In this document: in pieces, positions 4,208 to 29,607 of the stretch | Numbering within the stretch: position 1 is the stretch's first letter | Layout: every line of letters begins with the position of its first letter | From: Methanolobus zinderi | GTDB lineage: Archaea > Halobacteriota > Methanosarcinia > Methanosarcinales > Methanosarcinaceae | Reading direction: 5' to 3' | DNA length: 64,000 nucleotides | Assembly: GCF_013388255.1 (NCBI RefSeq) | Contig: NZ_CP058215.1 | Location: forward strand, 1,736,001-1,800,000 | The notes under the pieces: model-generated | The model's input: the letters and a program-made list of their open reading frames with translations, nothing else | Databases searched by the model: none | Told to the model about the DNA's origin: nothing | Translations under genes and position numbers: made by a program

Positions 4208-6066
4208 CCCCTTATTGCCTTTGCACCTGTTACAAGCTCCTCATCAAGCCCTTCAACTATCAGTGAAGGCAGACGGGACATCTCATTCTCTTCTGTACTT
4301 GCTACGGAATATTCTATTACTTTAGAAGAACCGGCGGAAATGCTCATCTTCCATACATGATCGTAATCGTTACCCATGGATATCACTTTGGGCTCCGGGA
4401 CAGCTCCTTCTATCTTAAAAGGAAGCATGTCATGGATATTGAAGTCGTATTTCTTAGAGGAATAGTTCCTCACACGTATCGAGACCTTAACAGCACCATT
4501 GCCATTGCTCTCAATTATCCTGTCAACAAGCAGGTTACCCATGACCTTTGCAACAACAGGGTTTATGTCAGGAATATCCTTATCGAGCGTTATGGCAAGT
4601 TTTTCGGCCATTTTGGGAAGTACCTTTTTTATAATAACTTCTTTCTCACGACGCTTTTTCAGTGAATCCTGCTTGCTCAGGAAACGGCTGAGCTTTCTGG
4701 AAACCTCCTTTACGGCAAGCTCTATCTCATCCTTAATTTCCGGAATCTCGGCAATAGCATCCTTTGATTCCGAGGTGAACGGAACATTTGTTGAAGCAAC
4801 ATGTACAAGGATCACAGCCGGACCGCTGGGTATTCCGCCACCAGGCTGGTTGAGTCCGTACTGTTTCCACTTTATGGACTCGATGGCATGTGTGGTAACA
4901 CAGCCTCCCTGCTGATATAGTAAAGGAACCCTGTTGGCAAAACGCATGATATCGATGCGTTCCTCCTTGTGAAGTTCACCACCGTAGGCTATGCCCACCT
5001 CTACGACAAAGGGATTGCCGGAAAATACAGAAGGTGAGCGGGTCGTGGTCGCAATGAAATCCACATTGAACTCCTTTTCAAGACCCTTGTAGATCAGATC
5101 CTCGCTTATGGGAGAAAGGCAGTCTGTGGGAGGAGCCATTATCTTTACCCTGGAGAACGCATCCAGAAGTTTTCTTGCCTGGTCGCGGTTCATCTCATGA
5201 GGGTCAAGTTCCGGGTCAAGACCGGATGCCTTACAGATCTCTTCTGCAGTCAGGTGCCCGATCTTGGAAAAAGAATAGCGTAAAAAGGGAGATAGTTTCT
5301 GACGTTCAGTATATCTGAGCATCTTCATAAGTGTACCAAGCTCGATCCCATGAGGATGCGGAAGAATCTCGTTTGCAGGGACTGGCATCTTGTCAGTTGC
5401 CCTCTCGAATATCTCCTCGTTGCCGTCAGGTTCCACCAGCCGGATCCTGGCATGCGGATTTACGATCGCGGTTGCCTTTAGATACTCATATATCGACTGC
5501 CTTCTGCCTTTTACATAGGATGCTTCCATTTCCAGCTCAATGCGCGTGCCGTGCGGACGGTCCCAGTCCACAATATCGTCCTTCAGGATCTCAGGCTCAT
5601 TGGTACTGGTATTTATCATCAGCTCGTAATTGTGTGCCGGCTTTGAAGGATCGATCTTGGAGATGATCTTTGCCGGGTGGCCGGATGTCAGCTGTGAATA
5701 AAGAACGGATGCGGATATTCCTATACCCTGCTGCCCACGGCTCTGTTTCAGTGCGTGGAACCTTGAGCCATAAAGCAGTTTTGCAAATACCTTGGGGATC
5801 TGCTCCTTTACTATACCGGGCCCGTTGTCTTCGATGATGATGACAACGTTATCCTTTCCGGAACGTTCAACGTGTAACAGGATATCCGGCAGTATCTCGG
5901 ATTCCTCACAGGCATCAAGGGAGTTATCTACAGCTTCCTTGACGGTGGTTATAAGACTGCGGGGTGCGGAATCAAAACCCAGGATCTGTCGGTTCTTCTC
6001 AAAGAATTCTGCGACACTAATGGATTTCTGACTCTTTGCAAGTTCTTCTGCAATGGGGGTTGCCAT
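4204..6066 (-). CDS. top6B: DNA topoisomerase VI subunit B
   Basis: 620 residues. This is the ATPase subunit that clamps DNA on ATP binding and drives strand passage by subunit A. The GHKL fold is evident: N box [12 protein letters not shown] (about 45-56), DNGPGI (about 80-85) and the glycine-rich GQQGIGISA (about 112-120). The H2TH and transducer domains follow; the conserved transducer lysine should lie near 430-440. It is the first gene of the top6B-top6A operon. The promoter side is the 60-70 AT-rich bases before 6153. The start is the ATG at 6066. Confidence 0.97.
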
Positions 6067-27300: not shown

Positions 27301-27617
27301 ATTGATCTCCAAAAAGCAAATCGAAACTAGTAGTTAAATATAATGGCTCGCAGCACATGCCCTTTTCGGTTGAATACCTAATGCTCAAAGGATATATTCC
27401 TGATTGTTGACAAAACATTTTTACTACTCATTATAAATAAATACATGCGTTTTTATATTAGAATGGCATAATAAACTATGCTCAAGTAATTGAGGGATAG
27501 ACAAAAAGGTTACCACAAAACTTAAGGCAATTACGAGTAGCCTTTTATGCAGCCAATACAGTTATTAAATTTGGGAACGAAATCAATATCTACTGAATTT
27601 TTCATTAGGTGGTATAT
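27301..27617. other. 317-base AT-rich divergent promoter region
   Basis: No gene, tRNA or strong hairpin is visible. TATA-like sequences occur at about 27431-27440 (TATAAATAAAT) and 27563-27571 (TATTAAATT). It serves hmgA on the minus strand and the KaiC-like gene on the plus strand. Confidence 0.5.
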
Positions 27618-28346
27618 GTGTCAGATGCAGACTTACCAGAGAGAATAGGGACGGGAATACCTGGGCTGGATGAAATGCTTCGCGGAGGTTTCTTTGCGGG
27701 CACTGCGAACGTAGTTTCCGGAGACTCCGGTACAGGTAAGACAATCTTCGGAACACAGTTCATCGTCGAGGGAGCAAAGAACGGCGAGAATGTCATGTGT
27801 ATCATTACTTCCGAGGAATCAAAATCAATTGTAAGGGAAATGAAGACATCTTTTAACTGGGACCTTGAGGAATATGTTAACGACGGAAAACTCACCTTTG
27901 TGGATATCACAGACCCCAGCCTGCGTCTTCAGAAAAGTGTGGAAATTGCGCCATCAGAGTTAATTAAAAGTTTCAAGAAACTTGTTGAAAGCAAGATCGA
28001 AGAAGAAAAGCCCACAAGGGTATTTATCGATTCCATTGAAGCGCTCTTTCTGGCCATTGAATCCAATTACAAGCTGAGAACACTCATAGACGATGTATTC
28101 AGCGTGTTCCGCAAGCATGATGTCACATCGGTTATTACGGTGGGCTCCATGTATGATCTTGACGAGATGGTAGAATACGGAGCTGATTCCGTTATCAAAC
28201 TAGGACGCATAATCTCCGGAAACAATCTCCAGCGCTCGATCTATGTTATGAAGATGAGAGGTTCCGGAACTATCAATGAGGTCCGCGTGCTTAACATCTC
28301 AGACAACGGTATGTCCGTACTCGCACAATCGCCATACCTCGAATAA
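27618..28346 (+). CDS. KaiC-like single-domain RecA-fold ATPase
   Basis: 242 residues from GTG 27618, four bases after AGGTGGT; a GTG at 27609 overlaps that site. Walker A is GDSGTGKT (about 35-42), Walker B is VFIDSIEAL near 137. One KaiC/RadA-type RecA domain only, without a second CI/CII copy. Archaeal single-KaiC proteins often modulate signal transduction, motility or DNA processes; which one applies is unknown. A stem-loop terminator follows its stop. Neighbour genes are unrelated in function. Confidence 0.85.
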   Translation: MSDADLPERIGTGIPGLDEMLRGGFFAGTANVVSGDSGTGKTIFGTQFIVEGAKNGENVMCIITSEESKSIVREMKTSFNWDLEEYVNDGKLTFVDITDPSLRLQKSVEIAPSELIKSFKKLVESKIEEEKPTRVFIDSIEALFLAIESNYKLRTLIDDVFSVFRKHDVTSVITVGSMYDLDEMVEYGADSVIKLGRIISGNNLQRSIYVMKMRGSGTINEVRVLNISDNGMSVLAQSPYLE

Positions 28347-28428: not shown

Positions 28429-29181
28429 TTATAATCTGAACCAGTCATTATCTTCAGTATCCTTTTCATCAGAAAATTCAATCCCCTGCACAGTGGAACC
28501 TGTGACAGCAGCAATTGCATCTGCAAAATCCCTGAGATAGCTTTTCTGGTTCAGGCTGCCATAGATAAATTTCTTGTCAAGCTGTAGGTTTTGCTGTATG
28601 GTTTCTTCCTTTGGGACAATTGTCACCTGAACATCGGTTATTTCAAGGGCTTTTACCATTGCCTTCCTGAAATCACCTATGCAATATGCTATGCGATGTT
28701 TGTATTTATTGCGCGTTTTTTCCAGATAGCTTGCAAGACGTTCACTTTCCATCTTTAAAAAATCACGCTTAACGGCTGCAACATTGCATTTTCCCATTAT
28801 GAACTTATAATCCATGAAAGGATATTTCGTATCCAGCTCCCGGGGAGTTATGCCACAGGTCCCGAAGACAACAATATGGACATCTTCTGGATCCAGAAGA
28901 CTGAATATGACTTTATCGAATATCTTATGAGAAGGACTCTCATGATATGGCTTTTTTTTTGAGCAGGGAACAAATATACAGACGTCCCTCTCCGGGGCCT
29001 CGTATTCATCGAGTACCCACTCATTGGCACGTATCATATCAGGATGATAGATCAGCTCATCCGTGTCCAGTGGCTTTTCTGATCGTTCGTTCTCGGGTAT
29101 TATAGGGGTCAAGGGAGTGAAGTATCCCGGCAAACTATATATATAATTGACGCAGACAATATACGGTTTTGCATAAACCAT
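28429..29181 (-). CDS. stand-alone DUF5591 (archaeosine synthase catalytic-type) domain protein
   Basis: 250 residues. The sequence PCSKKKPYHESPSH (about 74-87) fits the ArcS motif PC-x3-KPY-x2-S-x2-H exactly. ArcS adds an amine to preQ0-containing tRNA position 15 to make archaeosine. A full ArcS also has a TGT-like N-terminal part and a C-terminal PUA RNA-binding domain; neither is here, so this protein holds mainly the amidotransferase-type domain. It may work with separate tRNA-binding proteins, or act on another substrate. The first 30 residues are poorly conserved, so the start at 29181 is uncertain; an internal ATG at about 29040 is an alternative. Confidence 0.78.
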   Translation of the reverse strand: MVYAKPYIVCVNYIYSLPGYFTPLTPIIPENERSEKPLDTDELIYHPDMIRANEWVLDEYEAPERDVCIFVPCSKKKPYHESPSHKIFDKVIFSLLDPEDVHIVVFGTCGITPRELDTKYPFMDYKFIMGKCNVAAVKRDFLKMESERLASYLEKTRNKYKHRIAYCIGDFRKAMVKALEITDVQVTIVPKEETIQQNLQLDKKFIYGSLNQKSYLRDFADAIAAVTGSTVQGIEFSDEKDTEDNDWFRL

Positions 29182-29235
29182 ACAAGGGCGCAGGATCAGC
29201 CCTTTTTAAGAAATATTTTCGAGAGAGGACAGAGA

Positions 29236-29607
29236 ATGGCAAGTTCAATCCCTGAGATGTTAAGAGCAGATTGTAAATGCGAAGATATGGCTAAATGCGT
29301 ACTTGGCCTGAAAGAACTTGACATAAGTACTTACAAGAAACTTCTTGAAAACGGCCCAATGACGGCAGAACAGCTCGGAGATCTTCTGGAAAGGGAACGC
29401 AGCACAGCCTACCGTTCTTTACAGAATCTCATCTCGGCAGGCCTCGTTTACAGAGAGACAAGATCCATAGATATCGGCGGTTATTACTACGAATATGTGG
29501 CAATCAAACCAGCCAGGGTCAAAGAGATGATAAGGAAGACCGTTGACGAATGGTACCGGAAAATGGGCGATCTCATTGAGAACTTCGACAAAGAACTGGT
29601 TAAGTGA
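29236..29607 (+). CDS. TrmB-like helix-turn-helix regulator with N-terminal cysteines
   Basis: 123 residues. Residues 12-21 hold CKCEDMAKC, an unusual cysteine group before a TrmB-family winged helix (about 25-95; PMTAEQLGDLLERERSTAYRSLQNL is the HTH, described by its first and last residues). A C-terminal helix completes the protein. It lacks the sugar-binding domain of full TrmB. The cysteines could bind a metal or sense redox; inference. It starts at ATG 29236 about 55 bases from the divergent DUF5591 gene. Confidence 0.8.
   Translation: MASSIPEMLRADCKCEDMAKCVLGLKELDISTYKKLLENGPMTAEQLGDLLERERSTAYRSLQNLISAGLVYRETRSIDIGGYYYEYVAIKPARVKEMIRKTVDEWYRKMGDLIENFDKELVK

Follow-up and report, generated by a model that had tools for sequence, protein, structure and literature searches.

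The window, a stretch of 64,000 nucleotides of the Methanolobus zinderi genome (NZ_CP058215.1, positions 1,736,001 to 1,800,000), contains a gene for a small protein that, by the features tested in its sequence, is a DUF5591 protein and not an archaeosine synthase (ArcS). This solo protein has kept the motif of the ArcS core, lacks the tRNA-handling domains, and possesses a conserved second half of its own, while its gene coexists with those for a complete ArcS, RaSEA, and TGT. Tentatively, it may be considered an ancient ArcS-core paralog acting on a base outside archaeosine synthesis, most likely in DNA base repair; the kind of protein is known (DUF5591), and its function would be new. If it is indeed an enzyme outside archaeosine synthesis, the ArcS core would be a reusable base-modifying domain, and many methanogens and their relatives would carry a nucleic-acid enzyme that is strictly conserved and as yet unstudied. 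If annotation relied on the ArcS motif only, two genes of one genome would be labelled archaeosine synthase.

The solo gene, its relatives, and the ArcS of the same genome

The genome of the window consists of a single contig of 2.70 Mb and is 99.96% complete. The minus-strand frame 28429-29181 (Table 1) translates to 250 amino acids, as described earlier. The sole Pfam family retrieved for the protein, in searches to E 1, was DUF5591 (PF17884; residues 54-199, E 9.1e-19), whose gathering cut-off was passed (68.2 versus 26 bits); a TGT, C2, PUA, or other RNA-binding domain was not found in the same searches. NCBIfam ArcS models covered the protein over the core alone (64 and 60 bits versus cut-offs of 440 and 600); the ArcS equivalog NF040592 scored 64.4 bits over model positions 260-420 of 575, its cut-off of 440 not being reached. 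The Pfam search and the translation thus confirmed the original prediction of a DUF5591/ArcS-type domain that contains the full motif PC-x3-KPY-x2-S-x2-H and is accompanied by neither a TGT-like nor a PUA domain. This motif is known from the ArcS literature.

The predicted size of 250 residues held for the frame and not for the probable protein. Named records yielded 35 relatives; since the longest frame begins at most three residues from the position of TTG 29112 in 28 of them, this codon is probably the true start, yielding a protein of 227 amino acids, the version that the residue numbering of the conserved positions below follows. Among the 35 relatives compared, the first 23 residues of the longer frame are common to the window, L033, L034, and L035 only. 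These relatives, mostly from Methanolobus, Methanosarcina, Methanococcoides, and Methanohalophilus, share 54-93% identity with the solo protein, the closest one (93%) stemming from a Methanolobus sp. metagenome assembly. The 35 relatives and the profile matches in 186 of 390 genomes argue against a chance open reading frame.

Table 1. Features of the solo gene and its surroundings, in positions of the window
Feature	Position	Strand	Basis
Solo DUF5591 protein, probable true CDS from TTG, 227 aa	28429..29112	-	Relatives' starts, solo profile, Pfam
Longer ATG-started frame, 250 aa, as originally predicted	28429..29181	-	Translation
DUF5591 (ArcS core) domain match	28585..29022	-	Pfam
Motif PCSKKKPYHESPSH = PC-x3-KPY-x2-S-x2-H (C50, K54, P55, Y56, S59, H62)	28927..28968	-	Conservation alignment
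Subfamily signature FGTCG with C86	28852..28866	-	Conservation alignment
Subfamily signature AYCIGDFR with Y143 and C144	28666..28689	-	Conservation alignment
Putative TATA-like stretch, ~24-34 nt upstream of the TTG start	29136..29146	-	By eye (inference)
TrmB-type HTH regulator, divergent neighbour	29236..29607	+	Pfam
KaiC-like ATPase, convergent neighbour	27609..28346	+	Pfam

A second DUF5591 place was found in the same genome (C1:273614-274069, E 1.5e-62), inside a protein of 613 amino acids that contains TGT-like, DUF5591, TGT_C2, and PUA domains and exceeds the ArcS equivalog cut-off (800.8 versus 440 bits). RaSEA (TIGR01210, 373.9 bits) and a TGT-family protein (503-aa frame, 320.1 bits), by inference ArcTGT, were present too. 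The search for another full-length ArcS, proposed with the original prediction, thus yielded one with all domains, and the case in which the solo gene would merely be a divergent ArcS, in a genome with no other ArcS, does not apply. Because a complete ArcS exists in the same genome, the suggestion of a split ArcS in need of partners loses ground: ArcS is whole, RaSEA and TGT are present, and the solo gene and ArcS co-occur and do not take each other's place. For the same reason, the solo gene was rejected as the ArcS of this organism or as one half of it. The other suggestion, a paralog of ArcS, agrees with the full-length ArcS of the same genome, with a separate old clade, and with the replacement of ArcS-typical residues. 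The chemistry of the solo protein may be like that of ArcS, and its substrate would differ.

For the distribution of the family, a profile (A1) built from 17 sequences was applied at a threshold of E<=1e-30 to a sample of 390 genomes of the phylum. The solo family was retrieved from 186 of these genomes, representing 44 of 132 genera, versus 381 genomes for DUF5591, indicating that ArcS manages without the solo gene in about half of them. Within the family of M. zinderi (f1), all genomes except G359 carried the solo gene, which also occurred in the families f2, f6, f13, f27, and f30 and, with lower scores, in f7, f15, f18, f24, and f25; f3 and f5 genomes were not among the profile A1 matches in the 390 genomes. 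The families f7-f25 are presumably Methanomicrobiales, f13 Methanocellaceae, and f8 Archaeoglobi, and the genomes with the TGT-DUF5591 fusions considered below presumably belong to haloarchaea. By eye, 182 of the 186 solo-bearing genomes also contained an ArcS-grade DUF5591 match, the four others (G270, G342, G371, and G362 (best E 3.9e-18)) all being draft assemblies.

A maximum-likelihood tree was built from 65 of the 152 sequences. In it, a branch with a long stem (support 100/99) separated all 26 solo proteins from the other sequences, and another branch (support 89/81) did so for the 29 ArcS cores. According to this tree, the high-scoring and low-scoring solo proteins form one family that did not result from recent breakage of ArcS. 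Four small f8-type DUF5591 proteins and six TGT fusions formed separate groups on long branches; the fusions joined the solo clade at 98/80, a join of long branches that is not trusted. A viral gene was considered as well and dismissed: the family profile found no relative in viral contigs, behind a prefilter of two short peptide patterns that leaves near kin visible only, and phage records gave three weak matches (24-29% identity). Two Synechococcus phages match the solo protein weakly, and the match H3 concerns a hypothetical protein in a 10-kb archaeal virus, Sulfolobus tengchongensis spindle-shaped virus 4 (4861-5274, 24.5% identity, E 7e-3).

Conserved residues and predicted fold

The conservation alignment comprised 91 solo, 51 ArcS, six fusion, and four f8-type sequences, with identical sequences merged and L164, a short match, omitted. 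C50, K54, P55, Y56, S59, and H62 were present in 91/91 solo and 51/51 ArcS sequences; except for S59, which occurred in all solo, ArcS, and fusion rows, these residues were found in every row, fusions and f8-type proteins included. P49 was found in 91/91 solo sequences. Other positions distinguish the solo family. C86 occurred in 91/91 solo and 0/51 ArcS sequences, preceded by F83 and G84 (100% of the solo sequences) and T85 (99%), and followed by G87, which was also present in 90% of the ArcS sequences. Similarly, Y143 was present in 91/91 solo sequences, versus H143 in 50/51 ArcS sequences, and C144 in 89/91 solo sequences (serine in L108 and L124) and 0/51 ArcS sequences. G84 and Y143 were shared with the TGT-DUF5591 fusions, R149 (91/91 solo) with 35/51 ArcS sequences, and L187 and Y192 were typical of the solo family. 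Conversely, D103 (51/51 ArcS, 4/6 fusions) and the ArcS-typical TGxW at positions 111-114 were missing from the solo family, and C109 was not kept throughout the solo proteins. Comparison of the active-site residues, as had been suggested, thus revealed that the six motif residues are kept and that D103, TGxW, and H143 of ArcS are replaced.

The predicted structure of the solo protein (mean pLDDT 78, pTM 0.81, residues 102-108 poorly modelled) contains strands at residues 42-49, 78-84, and 137-143, after the ends of which C50, C86, and C144 come, respectively. If these three strands are parallel, the three cysteines would be located on one side. AF0587 (2q07) was the best structural match (Z 14.6 over 139 residues, 18% identity), the next rows having Z values of 8.2 and below, and it was the sole Foldseek match at E<=0.001 (E 1.9e-6). 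SCOP files AF0587 under the uracil-DNA glycosylase-like superfamily. A UDG-type fold was not relied on as a functional clue; structures of this type (UdgX rows) reached Z values of 6.9 and below and were outscored by cutinases, which are unrelated (up to 8.2).

Gene neighbourhoods and possible functions

Starting from TTG, the solo gene and the gene for the TrmB-type regulator diverge across 123 bp (window 29113-29235). A homolog of this regulator was present in 27 of the 35 loci of the named-record relatives (missing in L044, L045, L046, L052, L055, L056, L058, and L064), whereas 21 contained a homolog of the KaiC-like ATPase, with a few loci ending soon past the solo gene; the neighbour clustering run included 8 of the 35 loci. 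Loci beyond these 35 come from solo-bearing genomes for which the profile A1 matches were listed with coordinates. In the families f2, f6, f13, f27, and f30, 6 of 15 genomes had a TBP gene no farther than 5 kb from the solo gene, in L104, L105, and L138 even within ~21 nt; it also occurred in L045. Exonuclease III was encoded near the solo gene in L100, and a member of the same cluster in L099 matched Exo_endo_phos. L102, L103, and L140, all from f2, encode TiaS in the vicinity of the solo gene. A gene for a TIGR01177/UPF0020-type methyltransferase, in opposite orientation, adjoined the solo gene or lay close to it in 9/9 g61 loci, 2/2 g88 loci, and L105, these loci belonging to f24, f25, and f6 (e.g., L106, L107, and L105); the member checked remained under the NCBIfam cut-off (239.7 versus 316.55).

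A first lead from the gene context concerns MGMT. Among all 15 solo-bearing genomes of f2, f6, f13, f27, and f30 that profile A1 retrieved, 12 encoded an MGMT domain (PF01035) within 8 kb of the solo gene and on the same strand, covering four of the five families, versus a chance expectation of ~0.13 of 15; the 8-kb limit was set after the distances had been seen, the farthest being 7.4 kb, and 10/15 were within 2.5 kb. MGMT was located downstream of the solo gene in ten of the 12 linked genomes and upstream in two. The misses among the 15 were G347 (solo gene in pieces, other contig), G128, and G207, and the linkage was missing in 2/2 genomes of f27. As the solo and MGMT frames overlap by 15-25 nt in L103, L141, and L105, one operon is suggested for these loci. 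In the genome of the window itself, MGMT is not encoded near the solo gene (82560 versus 1764432). With a single reference, MGMT was found in 0/35 loci of the named-record relatives and not within 12 kb in the window; likewise, it was absent near the solo gene in 65/65 loci of f7, f15, f18, f24, and f25. The MGMT, TBP, and sulfur-gene searches in f7-f25 and in the relatives' loci relied on one reference protein each, which divergent members can escape. Mere co-occurrence was discarded as evidence, as it is uninformative with MGMT in 383 of 390 genomes. The linkage may represent one old gene order kept in several lineages, related genomes not being independent.

A second lead concerns sulfur transfer. 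Of 65 solo loci, originating from 63 genomes of f7, f15, f18, f24, and f25 (part of those families), 24 had at least one sulfur-transfer gene at a distance of up to 6 kb, versus 3 of 60 random regions from the same genomes (62 drawn, 60 used; Fisher 9e-6, loci not independent). The solo loci themselves had supplied the reference genes; without the three genera from which these came, 15/54 loci remained (Fisher 0.0014). Counted by genus, the numbers were 8/18 versus 2/16 (0.063) and, without the reference-supplying genera, 5/15 versus 2/16 (0.22). In one-reference searches, sulfur genes were found neither in the loci of the 35 named-record relatives nor within 12 kb in the window, and none occurred in 9/9 g61 loci. 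Among the layouts encountered, which stem from f7, f15, f18, and f25, L110 and L187 (G170 and G186) contained MoeB/ThiF and ThiS/MoaD-type genes upstream and CysK and CysE downstream of the solo gene, which resembles a carrier-protein cysteine synthesis set; each of these two genomes carries two solo copies, one of which stands in the CysE-CysK-solo-ThiS/MoaD cluster with MoeB/ThiF. Furthermore, LarE adjoined the solo gene in L109 and L203, and ThiI in L130, with LarE also nearby; YcaO-TfuA-ThiF-solo was co-directional in 6/8 g80 loci, and YcaO-TfuA was located ~3-5.5 kb from the solo gene in 7/7 g28 loci. One member each of ThiS, ThiF, ThiI, YcaO, TfuA, and LarE was checked by family search, the names CysK, CysE, MoaE, IscS, and IscU being a reading of the sequence. 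The sulfur lead is real enough for testing and too weak to decide, and both leads stand unreconciled.

Action on a base in DNA is favoured, with reserve, since the nucleophile site is kept, the ArcS residues are replaced, tRNA-binding parts are absent, the clade is old, and MGMT is linked. The sequence bridge to the DUF6884/YaaA/DpdC group, considered below, also speaks for this reading; against it speak the sulfur-gene neighbours in other families and the lack of MGMT near the solo gene in M. zinderi and its relatives. Such an enzyme would bind a nucleic-acid base of the purine type in the pocket of the ArcS core, where C50 would attack the base with the aid of K54, Y56, S59, and H62. The ArcS-typical D103, TGxW, and H143, presumed to be needed for lysine or preQ0-tRNA, have been lost. 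C86 and C144 may line a different pocket, and if their strands are parallel to the first one, this pocket could accommodate a metal or a second thiol. The most likely use of the enzyme would be to recognize or process a guanine-like base, damaged or modified, in DNA, in concert with O6-methylguanine-DNA methyltransferase. A possible, albeit doubtful, alternative is a second tRNA-modification enzyme, i.e., an amidinotransferase or lysine transferase for another tRNA position or base that works with RaSEA or other tRNA enzymes. This would be consistent with the motif shared with ArcS, with TiaS in the three f2 loci, and with the methyltransferase in f24, f25, and f6. Moreover, the ArcS of T. kodakarensis is described as acting in vitro on preQ0 nucleoside derivatives (PMC11298593), which indicates that the chemistry itself is possible without tRNA-binding parts. 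However, the same report gives a very large Km of 433.4 uM for the nucleotide and a reaction that is rare in cells (PMC11298593); in addition, the solo protein lacks a PUA, TGT-like, or other RNA-binding domain, its ArcS-typical residues are replaced, and the methyltransferase is divergent, not in one operon, and below its cut-off. A split or back-up ArcS that helps to make archaeosine at tRNA G15, either alone or as a subunit of the ArcS/RaSEA complex, is very unlikely. The core motif is kept and nearly all solo-bearing genomes have an ArcS-grade match by eye, but the ArcS of M. zinderi is whole, the solo proteins form a separate old clade with ArcS-typical residues replaced, and DUF5591 is far more widespread than the solo gene.

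The linkage to sulfur genes, together with the three cysteines that follow the predicted strand ends, speaks for sulfur chemistry, which nonetheless appears rather unlikely. The solo protein would then move or insert sulfur through C50, C86, and C144, perhaps around an Fe-S cluster, e.g., by adding sulfide to an activated or nitrile-type base in the way ArcS does with lysine. The enrichment over random regions and the layouts with MoeB/ThiF, ThiS/MoaD, CysK, CysE, LarE, ThiI, and YcaO-TfuA-ThiF agree with this; against it weigh the references taken from the tested loci, the genus-level counts, the lack of such genes in the 35 relatives' loci, the window (12 kb), and the g61 loci, the incomplete conservation of C109, and the serine at position 144 in two proteins. 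Its specific form, a nitrile- or base-directed sulfur transferase in which sulfide or a carrier thiocarboxylate attacks a C50-bound base at a three-cysteine site (C50, C86, and C144) to give a thioamide-type 7-deazaguanine or a different thiolated base, either of which would be new for methanogens, is highly improbable. Equally hard to credit is a non-catalytic nucleic-acid-binding or regulatory protein that has kept the motif for binding only. The varied neighbours, TBP in part of the loci, and the DNA binding of YaaA, linked via DUF6884 (PMC11701544), would fit such a role, but the full conservation of the cysteine, lysine, tyrosine, serine, and histidine, which are common to an enzyme, exceeds what would be expected for binding alone.

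Comparison with known systems

A search of the openly accessible literature retrieved nothing on the solo protein and none for DUF5591, and the titles found for AF0587 were off-topic. A CxxxK motif as in the solo protein also occurs in DUF6884 of the DUF6884 (YfjM)/YaaA/DpdC group; DUF6884 is reported to be distantly related to the DNA-binding YaaA, and YfjM to have turned up as an interactor of DNA lesions, which points towards DNA repair (PMC11701544). YaaA itself is reported as a new fold (PMC4834066) and gives no support for a glycosylase. The solo protein did not match the DUF6884, YaaA, or DpdC profiles (Pfam to E 1; PADLOC to E 0.001), and the bridge to this group is one haloarchaeal-type protein (L144:10966-11505), which matched DUF6884 (8e-13), YaaA (3.8e-7), DpdC (7.8e-7), and DUF5591 (1.4e-5; 25.4 bits, just below the cut-off of 26). 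For a second such protein (L145:9595-10062), DUF6884 was the sole match. When the profile of the solo family was compared with these two DUF6884 proteins, no signal emerged (E 0.24, very shallow alignments).

DUF5591 also occurs outside ArcS in TGT-DUF5591 fusions (L143-L148) of 665-682 amino acids, which have G84, Y143, and R149 in common with the solo family and differ from it by the fused TGT domain (checked in L144 and L145; the fusion is also present in L143, L146, L147, and L148) and by the lack of C86 and C144. In L144 (6079-11505) and L145 (4751-12999), the fusion is part of an island with a GHKL ATPase (checked in L144), a second TGT-family protein (weakly DpdA-like in L144), a DUF6884 protein, and a DEAD helicase with DpdJ and BrxHI matches (checked in L145); its appearance is that of an island for 7-deazaguanine DNA modification or defence. 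In L146, the fusion is surrounded by frames that look unlike those of L144 and L145. Small DUF5591 proteins of 175-225 amino acids in f8 (L149-L152) contain the CxxxKPY + H core, are otherwise unlike the solo family, and stand on very long branches in the tree. ArcS homologs are reported in phages too, with a less clear function, some being suggested to also perform a DpdC-like amidohydrolase reaction (PMC6884629), which sets a precedent for ArcS-like proteins outside tRNA.

AF0587, the one clear structural counterpart of the solo protein, can be aligned to residues 299-607 of the ArcS of M. zinderi, i.e., the core, C2, and PUA region, and is therefore ArcS-like and not a solo protein. Compared with ArcS (NF040592), the solo protein has DUF5591 and an identical PC-x3-KPY-x2-S-x2-H motif, P90, E92, and Y97-P98 being nearly always common as well, whereas the TGT-like N-terminus, C2, PUA, D103, TGxW, and H143 are absent and C86, Y143, C144, and a GSLxxxxY stretch are its own.
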